Source: Nitrospirota bacterium
GTDB taxonomy: Bacteria; Nitrospirota; Thermodesulfovibrionia; Thermodesulfovibrionales; JdFR-85
Direction: 5' to 3'
Length of the DNA stretch: 55,583 nucleotides
NCBI GenBank assembly: GCA_015492645.1
Contig: WGER01000085.1
Location: 1 to 55,583 of the forward strand
Part shown: positions 30,315 to 43,334 of the stretch, one piece after another
How positions within the stretch are numbered: the stretch's first letter is position 1
Layout: each line of letters begins with the position of its first letter
Translations under genes and position numbers: made by a program
The notes under the pieces: generated by a model
Told to the model about the DNA's origin: nothing
Databases searched by the model: none
The model's input: the letters and a program-made list of their open reading frames with translations, nothing else

Positions 30315-33305
30315 GTGGAGTTTCAGGAGATTATAATGAGGTTGAACAGATTTTGGGCAGACAGGGGGTGTCTGCTCCTACAGCCCTATGATATTGAAGT
30401 GGGAGCCGGGACCTTCCATCCAGCCACCTTCCTGAGGGTCCTGGGGCCTGAACCGTGGAGGGTGGCCTATGTTGAACCCTCCCGCAGACCTACTGATGGC
30501 AGATATGGTGAAAACCCCAACAGACTTCAGCACTACTATCAGTATCAGGTAATACTGAAACCGTCTCCGCTACAGAGTCAGGAACTCTACTTAGAGAGCC
30601 TGAAGGCACTGGGGCTTGATCCCCTCAAGCATGACATAAGGTTCGTGGAGGACGACTGGGAATCTCCCACCCTTGGGGCCTGGGGCCTTGGGTGGGAGGT
30701 CTGGCTCGATGGAATGGAGATAACCCAGTTTACATACTTCCAGCAGGCAGGAGGTATTGACCTGAAACCCGTATCTCTGGAGATCACTTACGGACTGGAA
30801 AGAATCGCCATGTATCTGCAGGGCGTGGATAATGTCTTCGACATAATCTGGACCAGGGGTATCAGGTATAGGGAGTTACACCACCAGACAGAGGTGGAAT
30901 TTTCCAGGTTCAACTTTGACCTCTCTGATCCACATCTGCTAAAGAGATGGTTCGATGATTATGAAAGAGAGTCAAAGAGGTTGCTGAAGGAGGGACTGGT
31001 TCTGCCTTCCTATGAGTTCTGCCTCAAGTGTTCCCATACATTCAACCTCTTAGATGCAAGGGGGGTGCTTTCAGTCACTGAGAGGACAGGATACATAGCA
31101 AGGGTTAGAGGCCTGGCAAAGGCGGTGGCAGAGGCATATCTGGAGCAGAGAAGTACGATGGGCTTTCCCCTTTCAGGACAGTGGCAGGATGAAATCTCCT
31201 CAGAGAAACCAGAGGCCACCCGCCCTGGGTCATCATCTGAGAGGCCCTTCAGGGGGGAACTCCTCTTCGAGATAGGCACGGAAGAGATCCCTGCCAGGTT
31301 TATCCCCTCTGCAATAAAACAACTGAAGGAGAATGCTCGAAGTGCCTTCAATCAGATGGGCATTCCCTATGACGAAATAGCAACCTTTGCCACCCCCAGG
31401 AGGCTCGTCCTTTATGTGAAAGGACTTTCAGAGAGGCAGCAGAAGAGGATAAAGAAGGTCTATGGACCTCCTGCCAAGGTCGCCTTCGATGAAAAGGGAC
31501 GGCCAACCAGGGCTGCTGAGGGATTTGCAAGGTCAGTCGGGGTCAGCACAGAGGCCCTTAATAGAGAGAGTACAGAAAAGGGAGAGTATGTATATGTAGA
31601 GATACATGAGGGAGGTGTTGAAACGAAGCATCTACTGCCAGGGATACTGAAGGATCTCGTTTTATCAATACACTTTCCGAAAACGATGCGATGGGCAGAC
31701 GGGGACCTCAGGTTCGCAAGACCCATCCACTGGTTTGTTGCTATCCTGGATGGAGAGGTGATAGAGTTTGAGGTTGACGGGATCCGGAGCGGAAACATCA
31801 GCAGGGGACATCGTTTCCTGAGCCCTGAAGAATTCAGAGTAGAGGACCCCCAACAGTACTTCTCTGAACTGAAAAAACGGTATGTGGTTCTTGACCAGTA
31901 TGAAAGGATGGAGAAGATCCTCTCAGATGCCGAGGCCCTTGCCGGCTCAAGGGCCGGAATGCTGCTTAAAGACGAGGAACTCCTTGAAGAGGTGACCTTT
32001 CTCGTGGAGTATCCGAGGGCAGTCCTGTGTAGTTTTCCCGAGGAATACCTCACCCTTCCGAAGGAACTGCTCGTGACAGTAATGAAGGATCACCAGAGGT
32101 ACTTTGCTGTTGTTAACACCAAGGGTGATCTTCTCAATTCCTTTGTTGTGGTGAGTAATACCACTGAAGATAACGACTCCACTGTGAGAGAGGGTGCTGA
32201 GAGGGTTATCAGGGCAAGGTTTGAGGATGCAAGGTTCTACTATGAAGAGGACACCAAGAGGCCCCTTATTGAAAGGGTCCAGGAATTAAAGGGTGTGATA
32301 TATCATGAAAAACTGGGCAGTTTGTATGACAAGACCCAGAGGATACTCGAGATAGGTCTTGCCATATCAGCAAGGACAGGGGCAGAACCAGAGAAGGTGA
32401 AAAGGGCATCTCTGCTCTGCAAGGCAGACCTGGTCACAGGAGTGGTTAGAGAGTTTCCGGAACTACAGGGGGTAATGGGTATGTACTACTGTCTCAGGGA
32501 TGAGGACCCAGAGGTGGCCAGGGCCGTTTATGAACACTATCTTCCCCGCCATGCCAGTGATGAGCTACCTGAGACACCAACAGGCACCACCGTGGCAATT
32601 GCTGACAGGGTGGATACCCTTGTCAACTTCTTCTCAGTTGGTCTCAAGCCCACCGGCTCAGAAGACCCCTTTGCACTCCGTAGGGCTGCCCTGGGTATCA
32701 TCACCATCCTGCTAAAGAAAGGTATTGACCTGCCTGTGGAGGAATTAATTGATACTGCCGTCAGGGTGAGTAAGAGACAACGGGAACCCCTCACAGAAGA
32801 GATAAGGCAGTTCTTTTTACAGAGAATTGAACACTTCTTCCTCTCCATGGGCTATCCCCATGACCTGCTCCTTGCTGTCAGGACAGGTCTCCTCAGCCGC
32901 TCCTTAGGTGCAACTAGTGCACTTCTGAAGGCGCTACGGGAATTCCGTGGAGTGAAGGAACACACTCCCCTGACAGTAGCAATTAAAAGGGCCTTCAACA
33001 TACTTGGAGAAAGAGATATCCCCACTGAAGTAAAGGAACACCTCCTGAAAGAGCCTCAAGAGAGGAGACTATATGAAGAGGTGAAATCACTTGCAGAGAT
33101 ACTGCCTCCTCTGATAACAGAACAGAGATACGATGAGGCCCTCCTGAGATGTGTCCAACTTATTGAACCGATAAATGAGTTCTTTGATAATGTCCTTGTG
33201 ATGGACAAGGACCCTGAAGTAAGAAATAATCGGCTTGCATTACTTAACAAATTGAGAGAAAACATTCTTATGCTGGCAGATCTCTCTAAGTTAACGGAAG
33301 TCTGA
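30315..33305 (+). CDS. glyQS: Glycyl-tRNA synthetase, fused alpha and beta chains
   Basis: A 996-aa fusion of the two subunits that are separate in most bacteria. Residues 1-287 are the class II catalytic alpha chain ([68 protein letters not shown]). A ~26-residue linker rich in Ser, Glu and Pro joins the beta chain (~314-996), which starts [15 protein letters not shown] and includes [10 protein letters not shown], an HD-type region and an anticodon-binding C-terminus. The start is GTG 30315 after AAGGAGG. Fused GlyRS is known from Chlamydia and several other lineages. It precedes the glycine-cleavage H-protein gene by 123 bases. Confidence 0.96.
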
Positions 33306-33818: not shown

Positions 33819-35204
33819 ATGAGGCTCGGTATAATCGGAGCCGGCCCTGGCGGCTATGTGGCTGCTATAAAGGCTGCCCAACTTGGAGCAGAGGTTCTAA
33901 TTGTCGAGGACACAGAGGTTGGCGGGACCTGCCTTAACAGTGGCTGTATCCCCACCAAGACCCTGCTGGCCAGTACAGAACTGTACTCCAAGGTGAAGGA
34001 GATGGACAGATTTGGCCTGCAACTGGAAGGCTCCGTACAACCGAGGCTCGATCTGATGATGGCAAGAAAAAGGAATGTTATAGAGACCCAGGTGAAGGGG
34101 ATTAAGAGGCTGTTTAAGAGTTGGGGGATCAAACTGATTCAGGGGAAGGGCAGGCTCAAGGCCCCTGACCTGATTGAGGTGTCAACAGATGAAGGAACTG
34201 AAGAGATAAAGGTGGACAGTGTAATTGTGGCCACAGGCTCAAAACCTGCAGAGATCCCTCTCTTCCCCTTTGATGGCAGGACCATCCTGAACTCCACTGA
34301 TGCCCTTGAACTGACAGAGATACCCAGGAGTCTCCTCATTGTGGGCGCAGGAGTGATAGGCTGTGAGTTTGCCTGTATTTTTAGAGAACTGGGCACAGAG
34401 GTCACACTGATTGAGTTACTACCAAGGGCCGTCTCAACAGAGGATGAAGAGATATCGGACCTCCTTGAAAGGGAATTTAAAAAGAAGAAGATCAAACTCT
34501 TTACAGGGGTGAAGGCGGAGAGAGTGGAGTTAAAAGAGGATGGAGTGCATACCCATCTATCCGATGGAAGGGAACTGGTAACAGAAAGGGTCCTCGTCTC
34601 CATAGGGAGGTCCTTTAACTCAGAGGGGATTGGACTGGAGGAGGTAGGTGTAGCAAAGGGTGAACGGGGTGAGATAAAGGTGAACAGGAGGATGGAGACA
34701 TCAGTAAAAGGGGTCTATGCCGTGGGGGATGTGACTGGTGGGATACTGCTTGCCCATGTGGCCTCAAAGGAGGGTATTGTGGCAGCAAGAAATATTATGG
34801 GAGAGGATGTGGAGATGGAGTATAATGTCGTGCCAGCCGCGATATTCACCTCACCAGAGATAGCATCTGTTGGACTGAGAGAACACCAGGCAAAAGAGAT
34901 GGGGCTGTCTTACATTACAGGACACTTCCCTTTCCGTGCACTTGGAAAGGCCCATGCGATGGGTGAGATATCAGGCCTTGTAAAGGTAATTGCTGACAGC
35001 AGGACAGACAGGGTACTTGGAGTACATATTATAGGTCCGCATGCCTCTGACCTTATACACGAGGCAGCACTGGCAATTAGGGCATCTCTCAAGGTCAAGG
35101 ATATTGTAGAGACCATACATGCCCATCCAACTCTGTCTGAGGGGATTATGGAGGCAGCAGAGGATGTCCATGGCTCTGCTGTACATCTGCCAAGAAAGTC
35201 ATGA
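33819..35204 (+). CDS. lpd: Dihydrolipoyl dehydrogenase (L protein)
   Basis: A 461-aa flavoprotein disulfide reductase that reoxidises dihydrolipoyl groups with NAD+. The N-terminal FAD site is GIIGAGPGGYVAAIKAAQLG; the redox-active disulfide is in GGTCLNSGCIPTKTLL; the NAD site is LLIVGAGVIGCEFACIF; FAD contact VYAVGDVTGG; and the C-terminal catalytic His-Glu pair is in HAHPTLSEGIMEAA. It starts directly after the gcvH stop, showing close coupling. Its own end overlaps the next gene by ATGA. It serves glycine cleavage and possibly 2-oxoacid dehydrogenases. Confidence 0.96.
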   Translation: MRLGIIGAGPGGYVAAIKAAQLGAEVLIVEDTEVGGTCLNSGCIPTKTLLASTELYSKVKEMDRFGLQLEGSVQPRLDLMMARKRNVIETQVKGIKRLFKSWGIKLIQGKGRLKAPDLIEVSTDEGTEEIKVDSVIVATGSKPAEIPLFPFDGRTILNSTDALELTEIPRSLLIVGAGVIGCEFACIFRELGTEVTLIELLPRAVSTEDEEISDLLEREFKKKKIKLFTGVKAERVELKEDGVHTHLSDGRELVTERVLVSIGRSFNSEGIGLEEVGVAKGERGEIKVNRRMETSVKGVYAVGDVTGGILLAHVASKEGIVAARNIMGEDVEMEYNVVPAAIFTSPEIASVGLREHQAKEMGLSYITGHFPFRALGKAHAMGEISGLVKVIADSRTDRVLGVHIIGPHASDLIHEAALAIRASLKVKDIVETIHAHPTLSEGIMEAAEDVHGSAVHLPRKS

Positions 35205-36631
35205 TACATCCGCTTATTGAAGATAGTGGCTGGTTTGATAAGGTCAGAAAAAAGCACCAGAAGCCCCTTTCAGAGATAGACACACTTCTGAGAGGTGTTG
35301 TAAGGTTCTTTAATATTTCAAACCTCTTTACAGAAGACACAGGGGTGGCTGGCAGGAACTTCCGCGCGGAATTGAAGGTGCTGAGAGACACCATCTACCA
35401 TCTGCTGGGCCTGATTGAGACCGTAATACCTGAAAGGTACAAAAATGCCTTCTGGTTCCAGAAGTATGCCGAACAGAGCCTCCTTTCTGACCATGACAGG
35501 GACCGCCTGAGACAGAATCTCATAAGACAGGAAAGCCCTGAACAGTCCCTACTGCTGATGTACGATACACTGGTAAATATAAAGGTGATCATACAGGGCC
35601 TCCTCAGTGCTGACAGGGTCTCCTATTCAGAATTTAAACACCTCGGAGACATCCTGGAGAGACAGATGAGAGAGAACATATACTTCGGTCCCTTCAGGAA
35701 AGAGATTGACCCTGAGTTTGACAGGATATCCAACAGGATGGTATCCAGGGCGGTAAGATCAATTAGTGACAGGAATGAGAGAAAGGTTGTCTCCACTCTC
35801 GTATTGTATCTGTTCCGATGTCTCAGGTTCATCGGTCATATCAACCCTAACGCCTACGAAAGTGTTACACTCAGTGTTTCTCTGGTGATTCTGGTCCTGT
35901 TGAATTCTGAGATCAGAAGTATCATCGAGTACATAGAGGGCACAGGTAACAGGATAGAAAATGGAGATTTGAGGAGTCTTCTCGATTCCATCGGCTTTCA
36001 GATGAGAATGGAGTCGAAAAGGGTCTTCCGGCAGGAACTACGGAATGTCCTCGGTGGTGTCACCCTTGCAAGACTCAAAGGCAAGATAGAGGCAAGCCAG
36101 GGGATTCTCAGAAACATGATAGAACAATGTATACTACAGATAATCAAATTCTATCAGCCTGATATCAAAGGAGAGGAGATATTTCCAGGTTTTGTGACAA
36201 GACTGGAACAATCTCTCAAACTGAGAGATGATGTGTACACGCTCTGGAGGATTGTGGACATACTTGAAACCAACTTCAAGGATAGAGATAAGAGACGGTC
36301 AATCTTTGAAGCCCTCAGGGCCTATATGATGTATTTCCAGAGTTTCACCTTCAGGCTCCTGAGACACGACGATTATGAGGAGTTCGACAGGTTTTTTAAC
36401 AAGTTTCTTGCCATCTCTGCAGAACGGATCCTTGAAATGGATGACGAGAAGTTCCTTCATGAACTGCACAGGTTCAGGATATTCCTTGAGACCACAGTTA
36501 AGATGGTCTCACAGAGGGAAGAACTGAAGGACAGACAGATCGATACCGAAAAGATAGATGCTGTGATATCTCAGTTTATGCCCATGTACAGAGAACTCAA
36601 TCAGATCTCTTCTTCCGGGCCTTCAGAATGA
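35201..36631 (+). CDS. Unknown 476-aa helical protein coupled to lpd
   Basis: I do not recognise this protein. It is soluble, almost entirely helical and strongly charged, with many Arg/Glu and Leu heptad-like patterns. One moderately hydrophobic stretch (SVTLSVSLVILVLLN, ~residues 221-235) may be buried or membrane-associated. No nucleotide-binding, metal or catalytic motif is obvious. ATG 35201 overlaps the lpd stop by 4 bases, indicating translational coupling, although its own ribosome binding site is weak. The 3' end overlaps the convergent cheW gene by 35 bases. Its place between lpd and a chemosensory operon does not indicate a role. Confidence 0.75.
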   Translation: MIHPLIEDSGWFDKVRKKHQKPLSEIDTLLRGVVRFFNISNLFTEDTGVAGRNFRAELKVLRDTIYHLLGLIETVIPERYKNAFWFQKYAEQSLLSDHDRDRLRQNLIRQESPEQSLLLMYDTLVNIKVIIQGLLSADRVSYSEFKHLGDILERQMRENIYFGPFRKEIDPEFDRISNRMVSRAVRSISDRNERKVVSTLVLYLFRCLRFIGHINPNAYESVTLSVSLVILVLLNSEIRSIIEYIEGTGNRIENGDLRSLLDSIGFQMRMESKRVFRQELRNVLGGVTLARLKGKIEASQGILRNMIEQCILQIIKFYQPDIKGEEIFPGFVTRLEQSLKLRDDVYTLWRIVDILETNFKDRDKRRSIFEALRAYMMYFQSFTFRLLRHDDYEEFDRFFNKFLAISAERILEMDDEKFLHELHRFRIFLETTVKMVSQREELKDRQIDTEKIDAVISQFMPMYRELNQISSSGPSE

Positions 36632-37049
36632 TTTCACCCTCCTCTGAGGATATCTTTTCTATATTCAGGGCAATTATTACACGATCCTTGCCCTCTTCGA
36701 TTATACCGTCTATAAATCTCGCCCTCATTCCCCTGTAAAGTCTTGAGGGCCTCTTTATCCGTGTATCATCGACCTCCCTTATTCCTATCACCTCATCTAC
36801 AAGGAGCCCTATCTTTTCTCCGGGTATCCTCACTATCACCATCCTCTCCTTGGATGGTCTGCTCTCAAGGTGGAGTCTCTTCCTCATATCCATTATGGTG
36901 ATCGCTTCACCACGGAGGTTAATCACACCGTACACATAATCCGGGGCCTCCGGAAGGACGGTTGCCTTCTGGGGATTTACTATCTCAACGACCGAAGATA
37001 TCTCTACACCAAACCACTGATCGTCAATCCTGAAGAGGAGTAACTTCAT
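36597..37049 (-). CDS. cheW: CheW-type coupling protein (last gene of the chemosensory operon)
   Basis: A 150-aa single CheW domain, which bridges chemoreceptors and CheA. Typical elements are LLFRIDDQWFGVEISSVVEI, YVYGVINLRGEAITIMDMR and GLLVDEVIGIREVDD. The start ATG overlaps the stop of the upstream receptor gene, so it is the last of eight co-directional genes. A second CheW is encoded earlier in the operon (41914-42492); two coupling proteins may pair with two different receptors. The 3' end overlaps the convergent 476-aa gene by 35 bases. Confidence 0.93.
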   Translation of the reverse strand: MKLLLFRIDDQWFGVEISSVVEIVNPQKATVLPEAPDYVYGVINLRGEAITIMDMRKRLHLESRPSKERMVIVRIPGEKIGLLVDEVIGIREVDDTRIKRPSRLYRGMRARFIDGIIEEGKDRVIIALNIEKISSEEGEIILKARKKRSD

Positions 37050-39052
37050 TATGCTCCTTCTGAGTATCTGCTTGATTTGGAGAGTCCCTGGGTTGTATAG
37101 GTCTGTAGTTCTCTATATAGGTCCTCCGCCTCCTGATAGAGAGACTTCATCAGTTGAGCCACCTCTCTGGTATCTCTCTCCATAGCAGAGGCAATCTCAG
37201 CAAGATTCTTGAATGAACTCTCAAGTCCCCGTGTCCTGTTTAGATCATCCTTCAGATGCACTATAAGAGATGAGACTATCTCTGATGACCTCTGCAGATT
37301 TTCAGAGATATACCCTGCTGTCTCTTTCTGTTGAGATGTGGAGTTCTTTATCAACTCAATTGAATCCATCACCTTCGACAGGATGCTGGTGTAATTCCTT
37401 ACAGACTCTATCTGACTATAAAGTCCCCCCTGAAGTTCCTTGAGTATTGATCTCAGGTTCTCTATCACCTCCTGTAATAGGGACACACCTGCACTCTGTT
37501 CAGCAGTGGCCCTCTTTATGGTTCTAACCATCTCCGTAGTGGCATCTGAGGCAGACCTTATCCTGCTGAAGACCTCTGAGGCGTTTTCTACGTCTCCCTT
37601 CGTCTGCTTAACCACCTTTACAACCCCCTTGATCTTATCACTCGTATGAAGTATCTGCTTCTTCACATCTGCTACTATCTGGGCTATTGTATTTGTTGAA
37701 TCTGCCGTCTTTTCTGCCAACTCACTCATCTGCTCCGCCACCACAGAGAAACTCCTACCTTCAGTGCCTGACTGGACCGCCAGTATCTGGGCATTCAAAC
37801 TGAGAAGCCTTGTCTTTTCAGCGATGTCCCGTATAACGGCCACAATCTCTCCTATATCAGTAGAATGCCTCTCGAGGGTCCTGGTGGTCATCTGCAGATG
37901 ATTCACCTCATCCTCCATTAACCTCATTGAACTGGTAATAGCCTCTATGGATTCAAGCCCATCCTCTTTCACCCTCTCTGTCACATCCTTACTCAGTTGA
38001 AGTGTCTTTGAAACCGCACTGTCAATCTCTGAGATGGCCCTCCTCACCTCTTCCACTGAAGAAGAGGCATTCTCTATAGAATTCACCGCTCTGTCCAGGA
38101 GACCACCCAGAGAAGAATTGTTCTCCTCAAATTCTGAACTGAGCATAGACAGTTGCTGAAGGTCCCTGAGTATATCGTCTGCGGCCTGAAGGATCTCATC
38201 TGTGGATGCCTTCATCTGCAGTATTGCAGACTGATTCTCTTCTGTAATACCATGCAACCTCTTGGTGGTATCAATCGCATCTTCCAGGATTGTATCAATA
38301 CTTTCAACCCCCATCTTCAACGTTTTGATCTCCTGTCCCTCTTTAATGGACTTCTCTGTCAGCGAGTCCTGGTTCAGTAACAACTGTTCTATAGCAGCCA
38401 CTATATTCCTGAAGCCTCCCTTCAGTCTATCTATAACATCTTTCAACCGATCCAAAAGGAGGGTGCTCCTTTGGGAGACCTCTCTTATCACAGGAACCCC
38501 ATGTGAGGATGGAATATTCACTGTAAGATCTCCCACAGCAGCCCTGTCAAGAAGATGACTCAAATACTTGAGTGGGCCTGAGATGCTGTTCTGAAAGAGG
38601 AGATAGAGTACAAGGGCAAGTACAAAAATGAGACCTGATTGTATAAAGACTGCTGTATAGGAGATGCCGGAAATCTCAGGAGAGTATCTTACTATGAGAG
38701 TGTATTTCTCACCCAGTTGGAGTTTCAGTATCCTCAGAGTCTTACCGGTAAATGGCTTATTCTTGAGGAGTATTGAATCCCCTTTTGCAGAAACAAGTTC
38801 AACAGAATAGACCCGCCTGATCCTTAAAAGTCTATCAAAGAGGCCCTCTACCTCTGTCATATCTCTATTCTCTCTGAGGGTCTCGGTGAGGAGGACGGCT
38901 ACACCTCTCAGGGTATCCTCAAAGTTCCTGAGCACCATCTCCCTCTGTCTTTCAGTAACAATGACTGAAAGAAGGGTCTCAATCATCAGAAATATCAAAA
39001 AGACGAGTATGAAAATCCGCAGCACCCTGTTTTCTCTTAATGTGTTTAGCAT
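37049..39052 (-). CDS. Methyl-accepting chemotaxis-like receptor with divergent tip
   Basis: A 667-aa receptor. Membrane helix 1 lies at ~13-33, a periplasmic sensor at 34-130 with no recognised fold, helix 2 at ~133-153, HAMP at 154-208 and a long coiled coil to the end. The hairpin tip that contacts CheA and CheW (~407-450) reads DIAEKTRLLSLNAQILAVQS then EGRSFSVVAEQMSELAEKT. It follows the usual pattern but differs from the canonical [16 protein letters not shown]-type core at many positions. It may couple weakly or to a dedicated partner. Start ATG 39052 lies 9 bases after the previous receptor gene. The ligand is unknown. Confidence 0.9.
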   Translation of the reverse strand: MLNTLRENRVLRIFILVFLIFLMIETLLSVIVTERQREMVLRNFEDTLRGVAVLLTETLRENRDMTEVEGLFDRLLRIRRVYSVELVSAKGDSILLKNKPFTGKTLRILKLQLGEKYTLIVRYSPEISGISYTAVFIQSGLIFVLALVLYLLFQNSISGPLKYLSHLLDRAAVGDLTVNIPSSHGVPVIREVSQRSTLLLDRLKDVIDRLKGGFRNIVAAIEQLLLNQDSLTEKSIKEGQEIKTLKMGVESIDTILEDAIDTTKRLHGITEENQSAILQMKASTDEILQAADDILRDLQQLSMLSSEFEENNSSLGGLLDRAVNSIENASSSVEEVRRAISEIDSAVSKTLQLSKDVTERVKEDGLESIEAITSSMRLMEDEVNHLQMTTRTLERHSTDIGEIVAVIRDIAEKTRLLSLNAQILAVQSGTEGRSFSVVAEQMSELAEKTADSTNTIAQIVADVKKQILHTSDKIKGVVKVVKQTKGDVENASEVFSRIRSASDATTEMVRTIKRATAEQSAGVSLLQEVIENLRSILKELQGGLYSQIESVRNYTSILSKVMDSIELIKNSTSQQKETAGYISENLQRSSEIVSSLIVHLKDDLNRTRGLESSFKNLAEIASAMERDTREVAQLMKSLYQEAEDLYRELQTYTTQGLSKSSRYSEGA

Positions 39053-39061
39053 CTCATCTCC

Positions 39062-41917
39062 TTAGATCAGGTCGAGTCTTGACATTATTTCTCTTATCCT
39101 CTTGTAATCCTCAGAGGTGGCATCAACAAAGCCCGTATAATGGGGATCGATCGATTTAAGTACCACTGAGGTCTCTGGAGCATCTTCCCTCAGGGAGAGA
39201 AAGACCTTCTTCACCCTCTCAACCTCTTCTGTAGGCAACTCCGGGTTCACACAGATGTTGAATTCCGGGATCTCCTCAGAGTACTTCAGAAACTTCAGTC
39301 CCATCTGCCTGAATCTTTCAGCCACACTCTCCATAACCCCACCTGCATCATACTCACCGTTCAGGACCGCCTTTGCCACCTCATCATGGTGTCCCAGGAA
39401 GTTGTAAAAGAGGAGGTCTTCAAGTCCCACGCCTGCCTCGTATAGCATGTATCTCGGGACAATATAGGATGAGGTGGACTCCTTATCACCAAAGGCAAAG
39501 GACCTGCCCTTAAGATCACTAAGGGAGGTAATAGTGCTGTCCTGTCTGGTTATAATTACCGAGTGGTGATATGGTTTGCCATCCCTGAGTGCCTTGAGAA
39601 TCACCCTCACCCCGTACTGCTCCTGTGCCTTTATAAAGGTGGAGGGGGTCATATAGGCGAGCATGGTCAGGCCACCGCCTATCTCCCGGATTGCTGTGTC
39701 AAAATCAGAGGCCACTCTCAATTCTACCCTCTTATTCAGAGCCGTTGAGAGATAGTCAGCAAGGGGTTTGAACTTCCTGTACATCTCTGCCGGAGACTGG
39801 AGAGGGACCACCCCGAAGGTGAGAACATCCTCCTTGACCGATATACCAACCAGTTTAAACTTCTCCATCTCCGTCATTATGAGTTCAGTATCCTTTACAA
39901 GGCCCCTCAGAGAGTTATTTAATCTGAAGGACAGTTCCCTGTTACGGACAGGTAGATCCTTTATATGTTCCACAGAAGTCTTTATCTCCTGCGACCCCAC
40001 CTTCTGCTCCCTTATCGCATTTGCTATCAACTGGCTCTTTTCCTTTGCACTATCAGTACTCTCTTTGATCAGTCTGCTCTGATCAGACTGTTCCTGAGTC
40101 GCCTTTCTCAACTGTTCTGCGATGAACTTCACGGTATCAGAGGCATCCATTATCAGGGCCATCCCTTTTGACTGTTCAGAGGTGGCCTTGGCTATCTGGC
40201 TCACCATGTTCCTCACATTCTCCATCATATCCGCAACAAACTCCGCTGCCCTTGACTGCTCAGAGGTGGATGTCTTGATAGCCTTTGCCATCTCGGAGGA
40301 CTGTCGGGCGCTGTCCAGTATCCTCTTGAATGCCTCTGAGGCCTCTCTCGCCAGTTTCAGACCCTCATTCACCGCCTCAACACCGTACTGGGTGGTCTCA
40401 ATCGCCTCCCTTATCTCCTTCCTCACATTGTTTATCAGGGCCGAGATCTCCTGAGTGGAGAATGAGGTCCTCTCAGCAAGGTTCCTTATCTCTTCTGCCA
40501 CCACAGAAAAGCCCTTTCCGTGTTCTCCAGCCTGGGCAGCAAGAATTGCTGCATTAAGTGCAAGCAGTGTTGTCTGATCTGCTACCTCATCTATTACAGT
40601 CAGTATCTTGCCGATCTCTTCAGAACGTGTGCCCAACTGGTTTATATATTCAGCAGTGGTCTCTGTTGATATCTTTATCCTTTCCATCCCCTTCAGTGTC
40701 TTCTCTATAGCCTCCATCCCGTAGGTTGAGGCATCCTGCATAACCTTCTCACTGAGTGCCGCTGATTCTTTCGCATTGCCATCAACCTCCTTGATCGTTG
40801 CCTTGATCTCCTCTAAGGCAGCAAGGGTGTCATCCGCACCTTTGAGGAGCCGGTCGGCACTATCCGAGATCTCTTTTAGGGCCGTATTCATCTGTTGTAT
40901 CGAGGCTGAAGTTGACTCCACTGACTCAAAGAGGTTATTACTGTTGTCAGCAATCTTCGAGATGCTCATTGTCATCTCCTCAATAGCAGTTGCTATCTGC
41001 TCAAAGGTCACAGCAAGCGCCTCTGCTGCATCGGTTATCTCTGAGATGGAGGCATTCAGTTCCTCTACAGAGGATGATATATTCTCGATGGCTTCTGCCT
41101 CTTTCTTGGTCCCCTCAAGCAGGTCTCTTGACTCGGCCTCTATCTCCGATCCCACCTTGGTAAGCCTCTTGGAGACGTCCTTCACCCTGCTCAATATACC
41201 GGAGATACTCCTCAACGCCTCCTGTAACGCAGAGGCAACACTGCCGATCTCATCATCAGGCAACCTTGAAAATCTTATATCAAGGTCTCCCTCAGAAAGC
41301 CTCTTTGCCGCCATCTCTATCTCCTTTACAGGTGTTACCACTATCCTTCTCAGCAGCACCAGTGTAATAAAGGAGAGGGTCAGTATTGCAAAAACAGAAG
41401 CACCAACATTAAAGAGAAACATCTCTCTCACCTTCTTGTTCTCATCTTTCATGCTGAGAGAGATCTTCAATGCGCCCAAGACCTTTGTGGCCCCGCTATG
41501 ACACTTACTACAGGCAGGTGTATTCATAAGTGGCAGATATACCACCAGATTTTCTCCCTCCACCATATTTACGGGCAGGGGCTCCTTCTTCAGTCTTGAG
41601 AGCATCTCACGCTCTGTTGCCTCAGCCCCCTTCATAAAGGCCTCTCTGCCCTCATGATTGAATACATCGATCTGCTCTACACCAAAGACATTCCGTAGAT
41701 CACCCACTATTGCCCTTGTAACCTCGGCCTTACCTTCAAGCATTGTTCTTTCTATGTTCCTGGCCATTATCTCTGCTGCAATGAGCATCTTCTTCTTTGC
41801 CGTCTCATAGATAGACTTCCTCTGCATAAGCGTCACTATAGTAACCGCAAATATACAGCCCACTATTATGACACCAACAATGACACCTGTTATCTTCTTT
41901 TCCAGAGTTCCCATCAT
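39062..41917 (-). CDS. Chemoreceptor with CxxCH sensor and C-terminal PhnD-like domain
   Basis: A 951-aa receptor of unusual design. Helix 1 is at ~9-30; the periplasmic part (31-165) contains ACSKCH (Cys136, Cys139, His140), a c-type haem motif like that of Tll0287/DUF3365-type sensors; helix 2 is at ~167-190; HAMP at 191-243; the signalling coiled coil at ~250-650 has a conventional tip ([20 protein letters not shown]). After this, residues ~698-951 match PhnD-type phosphonate/phosphite-binding proteins ([20 protein letters not shown], ...[19 protein letters not shown]). No third membrane helix separates the two, so this solute-binding-like domain should be cytoplasmic. Its start overlaps the upstream cheW stop by 4 bases. 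It may sense redox state or haem ligands outside and an anion inside. Confidence 0.9.
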
Positions 41918-42492
41918 ATATCCATCCTCCCATCAAAGGTAAAGGTTTCTTGAATGTTTAAAATACTGTAAAGATGTCCTCTGTAGATTACCACACCCTT
42001 GATAAACCTTGCATCTTCTTCGGACAGGCTGGGAGGGGGTGGTCTCATTTCATTCTCTTCTATAGAGACTATCTCCAGCACCCTTTCAGCAAATAACCCT
42101 GCTGGCCCCTTTGGGCCCTTCACTATGATTATCCTGTGATACTTCTGTTCCTCAAATGGCCCTGTTTTGTCCTCTATCTTGAGCCTCACAGCAAGATCAA
42201 GCACTGGTATCACCTTGCCCCGAAGGGAGATTATCCCCATCACAAAGGGCGGAGTAAGCGGAACAGGTGTGATCGGACGGGGCTTGATAACCTCCTGAAC
42301 CTCGCTTACCTCCATGGCAAAGCCTTCTGGCCCTGATTTAAAAAGAAGAAGTTCAATGGATTTCTCTAAGGTTATCTCCTCCTGTGGCCACTCAGTAAAT
42401 ACCTCCCCTTCAGATACCACAATTTCCGAGGAACGCTTCTCCGATTCCTTCCTTGATGGTCTCAGTTTTTTTCTTATCTTTGCGAGGTCCAC
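41914..42492 (-). CDS. cheW: CheW-type coupling protein with N-terminal extension
   Basis: A 192-aa protein: residues ~1-45 are a charged, probably flexible extension ([17 protein letters not shown]), and ~46-185 form a CheW domain ([40 protein letters not shown]). CheW proteins link receptors to CheA. It overlaps the ATPase gene upstream by 19 bases and the haem/PhnD receptor gene by 4 bases, so it is probably the main partner of that receptor. The extension could add a docking site. It is the first of two cheW genes in this operon. Confidence 0.92.
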
Positions 42493-43334
42493 GCTTTATC
42501 CCTCGACGTCTGCACCTGGGTACAGATCTGGAGAAACTCAATCTCTGAGAGAGCCCTTCTGACACATGAGGCATCAACTATCCTCTTATCACTGCCTATC
42601 GCCTCAAGCATCGCATTCGTTGCCAGGGTATTTATCACCCTTGGAATACCTCCTGAATATTTATATATCAGTCTTATCGCCTCTTTATCAAAGACATCTG
42701 CAGTGGCACCGGCCACCCTCAGTCTGTGCTTTATATACTCCTCTGTCTCATCCTCTGTAAGAGGAGGCAGATGAAAATACAGGGCTATACGTTGAAGAAG
42801 GGGTCTGTAAACCCTATGGGCAAATCTCCTTTTAAGGTCTGGCTGAGCCACAAGGATTATACTGAGGAGATTTTTATGGTCCAGTTGGAAATTGGTGAGG
42901 AGTCTTATCTCTTCAAAGGTCTCCCGTCTGGGGATCAACTGTGCCTCATCTATGATTATCACCGTGTTTATCCCTGCAGTGTCCAGTTGATAGAGCCTCT
43001 CGTAGATGATATCAAGCAGTTCCTGTCTGAATCTGGGGGTCTCTGTAATATCGAGTCTCTTTGCTACAGCCTTCAAAAATTGGGCGGGAGACAACCTGGG
43101 ATTAATAATCAATACTATCTGATAGGCGGTATCATCCAGTTCGTCCATCAATGCCCTTGTAAGGGTGGTCTTGCCACAACCCACCTCTCCTGTGAGCAGG
43201 ACCATCTCCCTCTCCTCGACAGCATACTGGAGCCTTGCAAGTGCCTCCTCATGGACACTGCTGAGATATAGATATCTCGGATCAGGTGTCTTACTGAAGG
43301 GCTTCTCCTTCAGACCAAAGTACTCCTCAAGCAT
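42474..43334 (-). CDS. ExeA/MshM-type AAA ATPase inside the chemosensory operon
   Basis: A 286-aa ATPase of the ExeA (general secretion pathway A) type. It begins MLEEYFGLKEKPFSKTPDPR, the usual signature, followed by Walker A GEVGCGKTT (~48-56), Walker B VIIIDEAQ (~122-129), sensor motifs and the AAA lid. ExeA proteins normally have a peptidoglycan-binding domain; this one does not, as is also the case for MshM-like ATPases of pilus systems. It overlaps CheA by 8 bases and CheW by 19, so it is an integral part of the operon. This suggests that the output is linked to pilus, secretion or array positioning rather than to flagella, but no direct evidence is seen. Confidence 0.88.
   Translation of the reverse strand: MLEEYFGLKEKPFSKTPDPRYLYLSSVHEEALARLQYAVEEREMVLLTGEVGCGKTTLTRALMDELDDTAYQIVLIINPRLSPAQFLKAVAKRLDITETPRFRQELLDIIYERLYQLDTAGINTVIIIDEAQLIPRRETFEEIRLLTNFQLDHKNLLSIILVAQPDLKRRFAHRVYRPLLQRIALYFHLPPLTEDETEEYIKHRLRVAGATADVFDKEAIRLIYKYSGGIPRVINTLATNAMLEAIGSDKRIVDASCVRRALSEIEFLQICTQVQTSRDKAWTSQR

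Follow-up and report, generated by a model that had tools for sequence, protein, structure and literature searches.

Solute-binding domains usually serve as periplasmic sensors or as transport partners, PhnD-type proteins being periplasmic partners of ABC transporters, and the question raised by the locus described here is what such a domain does at the far end of a chemoreceptor, behind its signalling domain. The gene comes from a Nitrospirota bacterium (lineage JdFR-85; contig WGER01000085.1, assembly GCA_015492645.1), and "the window" refers throughout to the whole 55,583-nt stretch of that contig. On the reverse strand, 39062-41917 forms a single unbroken reading frame for a 951-residue protein in which Pfam recognises, from N to C terminus, a Mcp40H-20 haem sensor, a HAMP domain, an MCP signalling domain and a complete Phosphonate-bd domain (Table 1). 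An MCPsignal hairpin with a conserved tip, HAMP, and CheA and CheW partners are all present, as in other members of the MCP family.

Table 1. Features of the receptor gene and its operon, in window coordinates
Feature	Position	Strand	Evidence
CheW, 150 aa, same operon	36597..37049	-	Pfam 3.3e-36; conserved position
Second MCP, 667 aa, same operon	37049..39052	-	Pfam 1.8e-27
Chemoreceptor gene, 951 aa	39062..41917	-	ORF; Pfam domains; orthologues in 71/149 order genomes
Cytoplasmic (predicted) PhnD/PtxB-type solute-binding domain, residues 698-948	39074..39826	-	Pfam, TIGR01098, AlphaFold, Foldseek
F886, replacing the phosphite-capping Tyr of PtxB	39260..39262	-	Alignment; 94% Phe
H844, equivalent to PtxB H155	39386..39388	-	Alignment; 94% conserved
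S814-T815-S816, oxyanion cradle equivalent to PtxB S124-T125-S126	39470..39478	-	Alignment
Signalling hairpin, helices 223-462 and 464-685	39863..41251	-	Full-length model; MCPsignal
HAMP domain, residues 188-238	41204..41356	-	Pfam, 6.6e-8
Membrane helix 2, residues 171-189	41351..41407	-	Kyte-Doolittle
Periplasmic haem-Cache sensor PF21563, residues 51-156	41450..41767	-	Pfam; PDB 3b47 (GSU0582) E 6.9e-5
CSKCH haem-c attachment motif, residues 136-140	41498..41512	-	Sequence; 47/48 orthologues
Met59, equivalent to the distal haem ligand Met60 of GSU0935	41741..41743	-	Alignment to 3b42
Membrane helix 1, residues 12-30	41828..41884	-	Kyte-Doolittle
CheW, 192 aa, same operon	41914..42492	-	Pfam 1.1e-32
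ExeA-like AAA ATPase, same operon	42474..43334	-	Pfam AAA_22 3.4e-24; TIGR03015 4.7e-66, below cut-off
CheA, 649 aa	43327..45276	-	Hpt, H-kinase_dim, HATPase_c and CheW domains
CheY-like receiver, 123 aa	45273..45644	-	Pfam 1.6e-29
DUF4388 protein, 366 aa	45641..46741	-	DUF4388 2.2e-24; GAF_2 0.0075, below cut-off

Topology and outer sensor

A Kyte-Doolittle profile (19-residue window, threshold 1.6) gives the two membrane helices that a sequence-only reading of the window had described, and Pfam recovers the HAMP domain and the normal signalling hairpin of that description (MCPsignal at residues 422-570, 9.4e-45). There is no third membrane helix after HAMP, the highest later 19-residue window reaching 1.13, and the check proposed at the time, for a helix between the signalling and C-terminal domains, thus finds none. 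Because HAMP and the CheA/CheW-binding hairpin are necessarily cytoplasmic and no membrane helix lies beyond HAMP, the C-terminal Venus-flytrap domain is, by its predicted topology, on the cytoplasmic side of the membrane.

CxxCH motifs bind c-type haem, and one had been noted in the outer part of the protein as the mark of a periplasmic haem sensor. This is borne out by an above-cut-off match to Mcp40H-20_sensor (PF21563, 5.8e-7), by retention of the motif in 47 of 48 full-length orthologues and by a predicted haem site; DUF3365, which had been suggested as the model to look for, is itself unmatched, the Pfam model being PF21563. GSU0935 (3b42) matches residues 51-156 more weakly than does GSU0582 (3b47). 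On the printed alignment, with Cys140 of GSU0935 as the starting point for counting backwards, Met59, conserved at least 90% in the 48 orthologues, is the equivalent of Met60, described as the distal haem ligand of GSU0935 (PMC8396549). GSU0582 and GSU0935, the reference proteins of PF21563, belong to the haem-Cache group according to a 2026 preprint, which renames the family sCache_heme, reports its enrichment among Nitrospirota and attributes NO sensing to the signalling-linked members (PMC12889525). The outer half of the receptor is, on the strength of these matches, a member of this known kind. Both Geobacter sulfurreducens proteins likewise combine an outer CxxCH haem-c Cache and a Met distal ligand with HAMP and an MCP hairpin, whereas the C-terminal solute-binding domain of the Nitrospirota receptor is not described for them in the accessible parts of these sources.

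A flytrap predicted to lie beside HAMP

The suggestion that some 250 C-terminal residues are PhnD-like is confirmed by a match of PF12974 to residues 701-938 that covers the full model (E 2e-66) and by TIGR01098 (5.7e-45, above cut-off). Structure prediction, which had been named among the checks, agrees: AlphaFold2 (60 sequences) gives residues 686-951 a two-lobed type II solute-binding fold (pLDDT 94.9, pTM 0.89), for which the top Foldseek match is PtxB (5o37/5o2j; E about 8e-30, TM 0.80), with ArrX at TM 0.83 and PhnD, AioX, HtxB and XAC2383 also retrieved. The domain has in common with PtxB and PhnD its fold, the full PF12974 match and the STS-H cradle, but it is not exported, no transporter partner was found for it and the phosphite cap has been lost; between HAMP and the flytrap the Kyte-Doolittle profile contains no signal or membrane segment of the kind that periplasmic export would call for. 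ArrX, AioX and XAC2383 are periplasmic sensory flytraps that work together with a histidine kinase or a cyclase, and in them the PhnD-type fold likewise serves sensing and not transport, but they are separate periplasmic proteins, while the domain described here is fused and predicted to be cytoplasmic.

The best-conserved region of the receptor is the hairpin tip (0.92), the CheA/CheW-binding part of which lies near residues 441-490. Since the two hairpin arms are nearly equal in length, residues 698-948 would be attached next to HAMP, at the opposite end of the hairpin from its tip, and in the full-length model, whose pTM of 0.39 makes domain placement unreliable in detail, the flytrap appears to follow a complete returning arm at the HAMP end of the hairpin. 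The sequence-only reading was thus right to place the fold after the signalling tip without a further membrane helix, but a position near the tip gives way to one near HAMP.

Homologous loci show how freely the inputs are exchanged. In six of them (L074, L076, L077, L078, L079 and L080) the membrane helices are split by a short loop, leaving no outer sensor, and the flytrap is kept; it is also kept in four others (L075, the second copy in L081, L082 and L084) where the outer sensor is a different Cache. The haem sensor is kept and the flytrap lost in L086, and L087, L088 and L106 have neither. Because it is retained when the outer sensor is lost, the flytrap is most simply itself an input, and its persistence where the outer sensor is swapped or deleted suggests a sensor in its own right. 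Exchange on both sides of a constant hairpin would be the pattern expected of two independent inputs. The flytrap is dispensable to the pathway, since the operons of L086, L087, L088 and L106 keep a receptor without it.

The pocket and its candidate ligands

The ligand-contacting positions of PtxB, as defined in PMC5700983, map to L706, F739, H784, S814, T815, S816, H844 and F886. The STS-H cradle is retained in 81-100% of homologues; changed relative to PtxB are the positions equivalent to D16, Y49, Y94 and the capping Tyr, and the Asp partner of that Tyr is Leu (L706 here). Our reading of these alignments is a functional anion pocket whose specificity has changed. It might instead be that the flytrap no longer binds a small molecule and has become a scaffold for another protein or a stabiliser of the receptor dimer, a reading to which the several altered positions lend themselves, as does the adoption of quite different ligands, sterols, by other proteins of the PF12974 fold (PMC10942540). 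We consider this unlikely, given that conservation at the eight pocket positions exceeds the average for the domain (0.836 vs 0.65, permutation p 0.009) and that the signature L706, H/Q784, STS, H844 and PEFN (884-887) is restricted to the fused clade and differs from that of periplasmic flytraps of the same lineage.

Less probable still is a flytrap that reads sulfite, thiosulfate or tetrathionate as a specific sulfur-oxyanion sensor in dissimilatory sulfur metabolism. The window genome contains dsrA, as do 66 of the 71 genomes of its order that carry the fusion (hereafter carriers), but so do 64 of 78 non-carriers (Fisher p 0.052), and co-occurrence with a gene this nearly universal was rejected as uninformative. 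The domain also matches the tetrathionate kinase TtrS, though weakly (5.9e-4) and far below the cut-off, and another flytrap of the same genome (L092) matches TtrS better than the receptor domain does.

A shade more doubtful again is the phosphonate or phosphite ligand originally proposed, by which the domain, like PtxB or PhnD, would sense imported reduced phosphorus. PtxB is indeed its closest solved relative by sequence (1.4e-33) as well as in the Foldseek search, and the cradle is conserved, but the capping Tyr is Phe in 94% of homologues and its Asp partner Leu in 85-88%, and in PtxB itself the Tyr-to-Phe change lowers phosphite affinity by about three orders of magnitude (PMC5700983). 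The PhnE permease has no match in the window genome at E up to 0.001, on which ground a link to phosphonate transport was rejected, and is found in only 3 of the 71 carriers. With a Phe/Leu cap in place of Tyr/Asp and a genome without PhnE, the phosphite/phosphonate reading is weak.

Distribution and origin of the fusion

Full or nearly full-length orthologues occur in 14 of the 17 genomes of the window's family, with a further one divided between contig ends. Within the order the fusion is present in 71 of 149 sampled genomes, a total compiled by hand that includes a few copies cut by contig ends, and within a phylum sample in about 60 of 296 (also a hand count), so that it recurs across several families and a class, and in additional families of the phylum. 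All 48 aligned members have HAMP, MCPsignal and PF12974, and 43 have the haem sensor. A chimaera joining a chemoreceptor gene to a PhnD gene, created in assembly or annotation, has a negligible probability: nothing was found in its favour, and it is refuted by the recurrence of this junction in dozens of genomes across several families, among them the single-contig genomes G021 and G111. A contig scan reaching only close relatives returned seven fusion loci, six in Nitrospirae/Nitrospirota and one in 'Bacterium BMS3Bbin07', and a plasmid search returned no place covering 80% of the query.

In a tree of flytrap domains, 40 of 41 fused domains fall in one clade (99/95); its neighbours are periplasmic flytraps encoded in these genomes, and the PtxB references lie elsewhere. 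Apart from the receptor, the window genome has three strong PhnD-family loci, all of them next to a histidine kinase. At L092 in this genome (1088-5773 on contig C74), one protein has two PhnD-like domains in tandem behind a hydrophobic N-terminal segment, and a Cache histidine kinase and a sigma-54 response regulator come next; the second of its flytraps shares 40% identity with the domain of the receptor. Elsewhere, L089 (2351-4294, forward strand) encodes a 648-aa membrane chemoreceptor with no recognised outer sensor and a C-terminal flytrap, a receptor type that may represent an independent fusion, and L081 and L090 are two C-terminal-flytrap chemoreceptors that are near each other on a single contig and differ in their outer sensors.

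Operon and pathway output

The receptor is encoded in a che operon of the order DUF4388 - CheY - CheA - ExeA-like ATPase - CheW - receptor - second MCP - CheW, which is conserved across the class, with genes absent or at contig ends in some loci, and among carriers the fusion receptor is usually found in this same operon. The AAA ATPase, of ExeA/XrtA-associated type (42474-43334, reverse strand), stays inside the operon in most orthologous operons. In L101 the operon continues into genes for a HEAT-repeat protein, CheR and CheB; a like-sized gene set is present on contig C73 of the window genome, where a family search identified CheR and the HEAT and CheB neighbours are assigned solely from gene order and size. 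By family search, full chemoreceptors in the window genome number only three.

FliG is present in the window genome, and neighbouring genes look flagellar. Among the 71 carriers of the order, FliG was not found in 46, of which 33 are genomes at least 95% complete, and it is rarer in carriers than in non-carriers (Fisher p 8e-6, a descriptive value that ignores relatedness); three FliG-positive families of the order-wide sample (f3, f9 and f12) are without the receptor. Because most carriers are without FliG, the output in most of them is probably not a flagellar motor. DUF4388, present in the operon, is the PATAN domain, which in cyanobacteria is associated with the control of type IV pili. 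In the flagellum-less G021, possible pilus genes within 83% of the genome are limited to a type II secretion cluster and two ORFs, one of them pilin-like and the other PilT-like but truncated.

A receptor with probable inputs on both sides of the membrane

We think it probable that the protein is a two-input chemoreceptor, in which an outer haem-Cache and an inner flytrap jointly signal to the receptor's own CheA-CheW-CheY, with a mostly non-flagellar output. Outside, the c-type-haem Cache would exchange its Met ligand and in this way sense redox state or a diatomic molecule that binds haem, such as NO. The flytrap may have been captured from a periplasmic sensory solute-binding protein, and a short linker would attach it where the returning hairpin arm ends, level with HAMP; there we infer that it binds a cytoplasmic oxyanion or a phosphorylated or sulfur-oxyanion metabolite. 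Its closure would alter the packing of HAMP and of the hairpin base and so bias CheA, a mechanical coupling suggested by the geometry of the model, and the receptor would thereby integrate what the haem reports from outside with the metabolite sensed inside, signalling to the CheA-CheW-CheY of its conserved operon. More tentatively, the move of the flytrap to the cytoplasmic side may have made it an internal sensor, through which external redox or NO is set against an internal oxyanion pool to steer non-flagellar behaviour.

Ortega and Krell (2020) describe chemoreceptors whose ligand-binding domain lies C-terminal to the signalling domain as a poorly characterised subfamily; it comprises at least 17 types of such domains, the CZB zinc-binding domain being the most populated (PMC7390727). 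The Nitrospirota receptor likewise carries its sensor, here predicted to bind ligand, after the signalling domain, but that sensor is a two-lobed type II solute-binding fold, and the receptor also has a haem sensor outside. The sequence-only reading had taken the architecture for an undescribed class; the C-terminal position is already known from that subfamily, and it is the combination with a flytrap and a haem sensor that appears unreported. A search of the literature, of a kind that misses most subscription journals, found no study of the chemoreceptor-PF12974 combination, and nothing on chemoreceptors with PF12974/Phosphonate-bd beyond a survey of solute-binding proteins. The new part would be input from both sides of the membrane in a C-terminal-LBD chemoreceptor. 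If external redox or NO and an internal oxyanion are indeed both sensed, the receptor would define a distinct class of dual-compartment chemoreceptor. A conserved cytoplasmic flytrap able to act on HAMP and the hairpin base would be a testable integrator of inner metabolism and outer cues, for which relatives without the outer sensor, without the flytrap or with neither provide natural controls.

Other features of the window

Rfam has no matches anywhere in the 55,583 nt. Beside the operon, a 476-aa ORF (35201-36631, forward strand) has no Pfam match, and its 3' end overlaps the convergent CheW gene by 35 bases; among the loci compared it accompanies the operon only in a genome of the same genus (64%). 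A 996-aa ORF (30315-33305, forward strand) encodes the alpha and beta subunits of glycyl-tRNA synthetase as a single fused protein.
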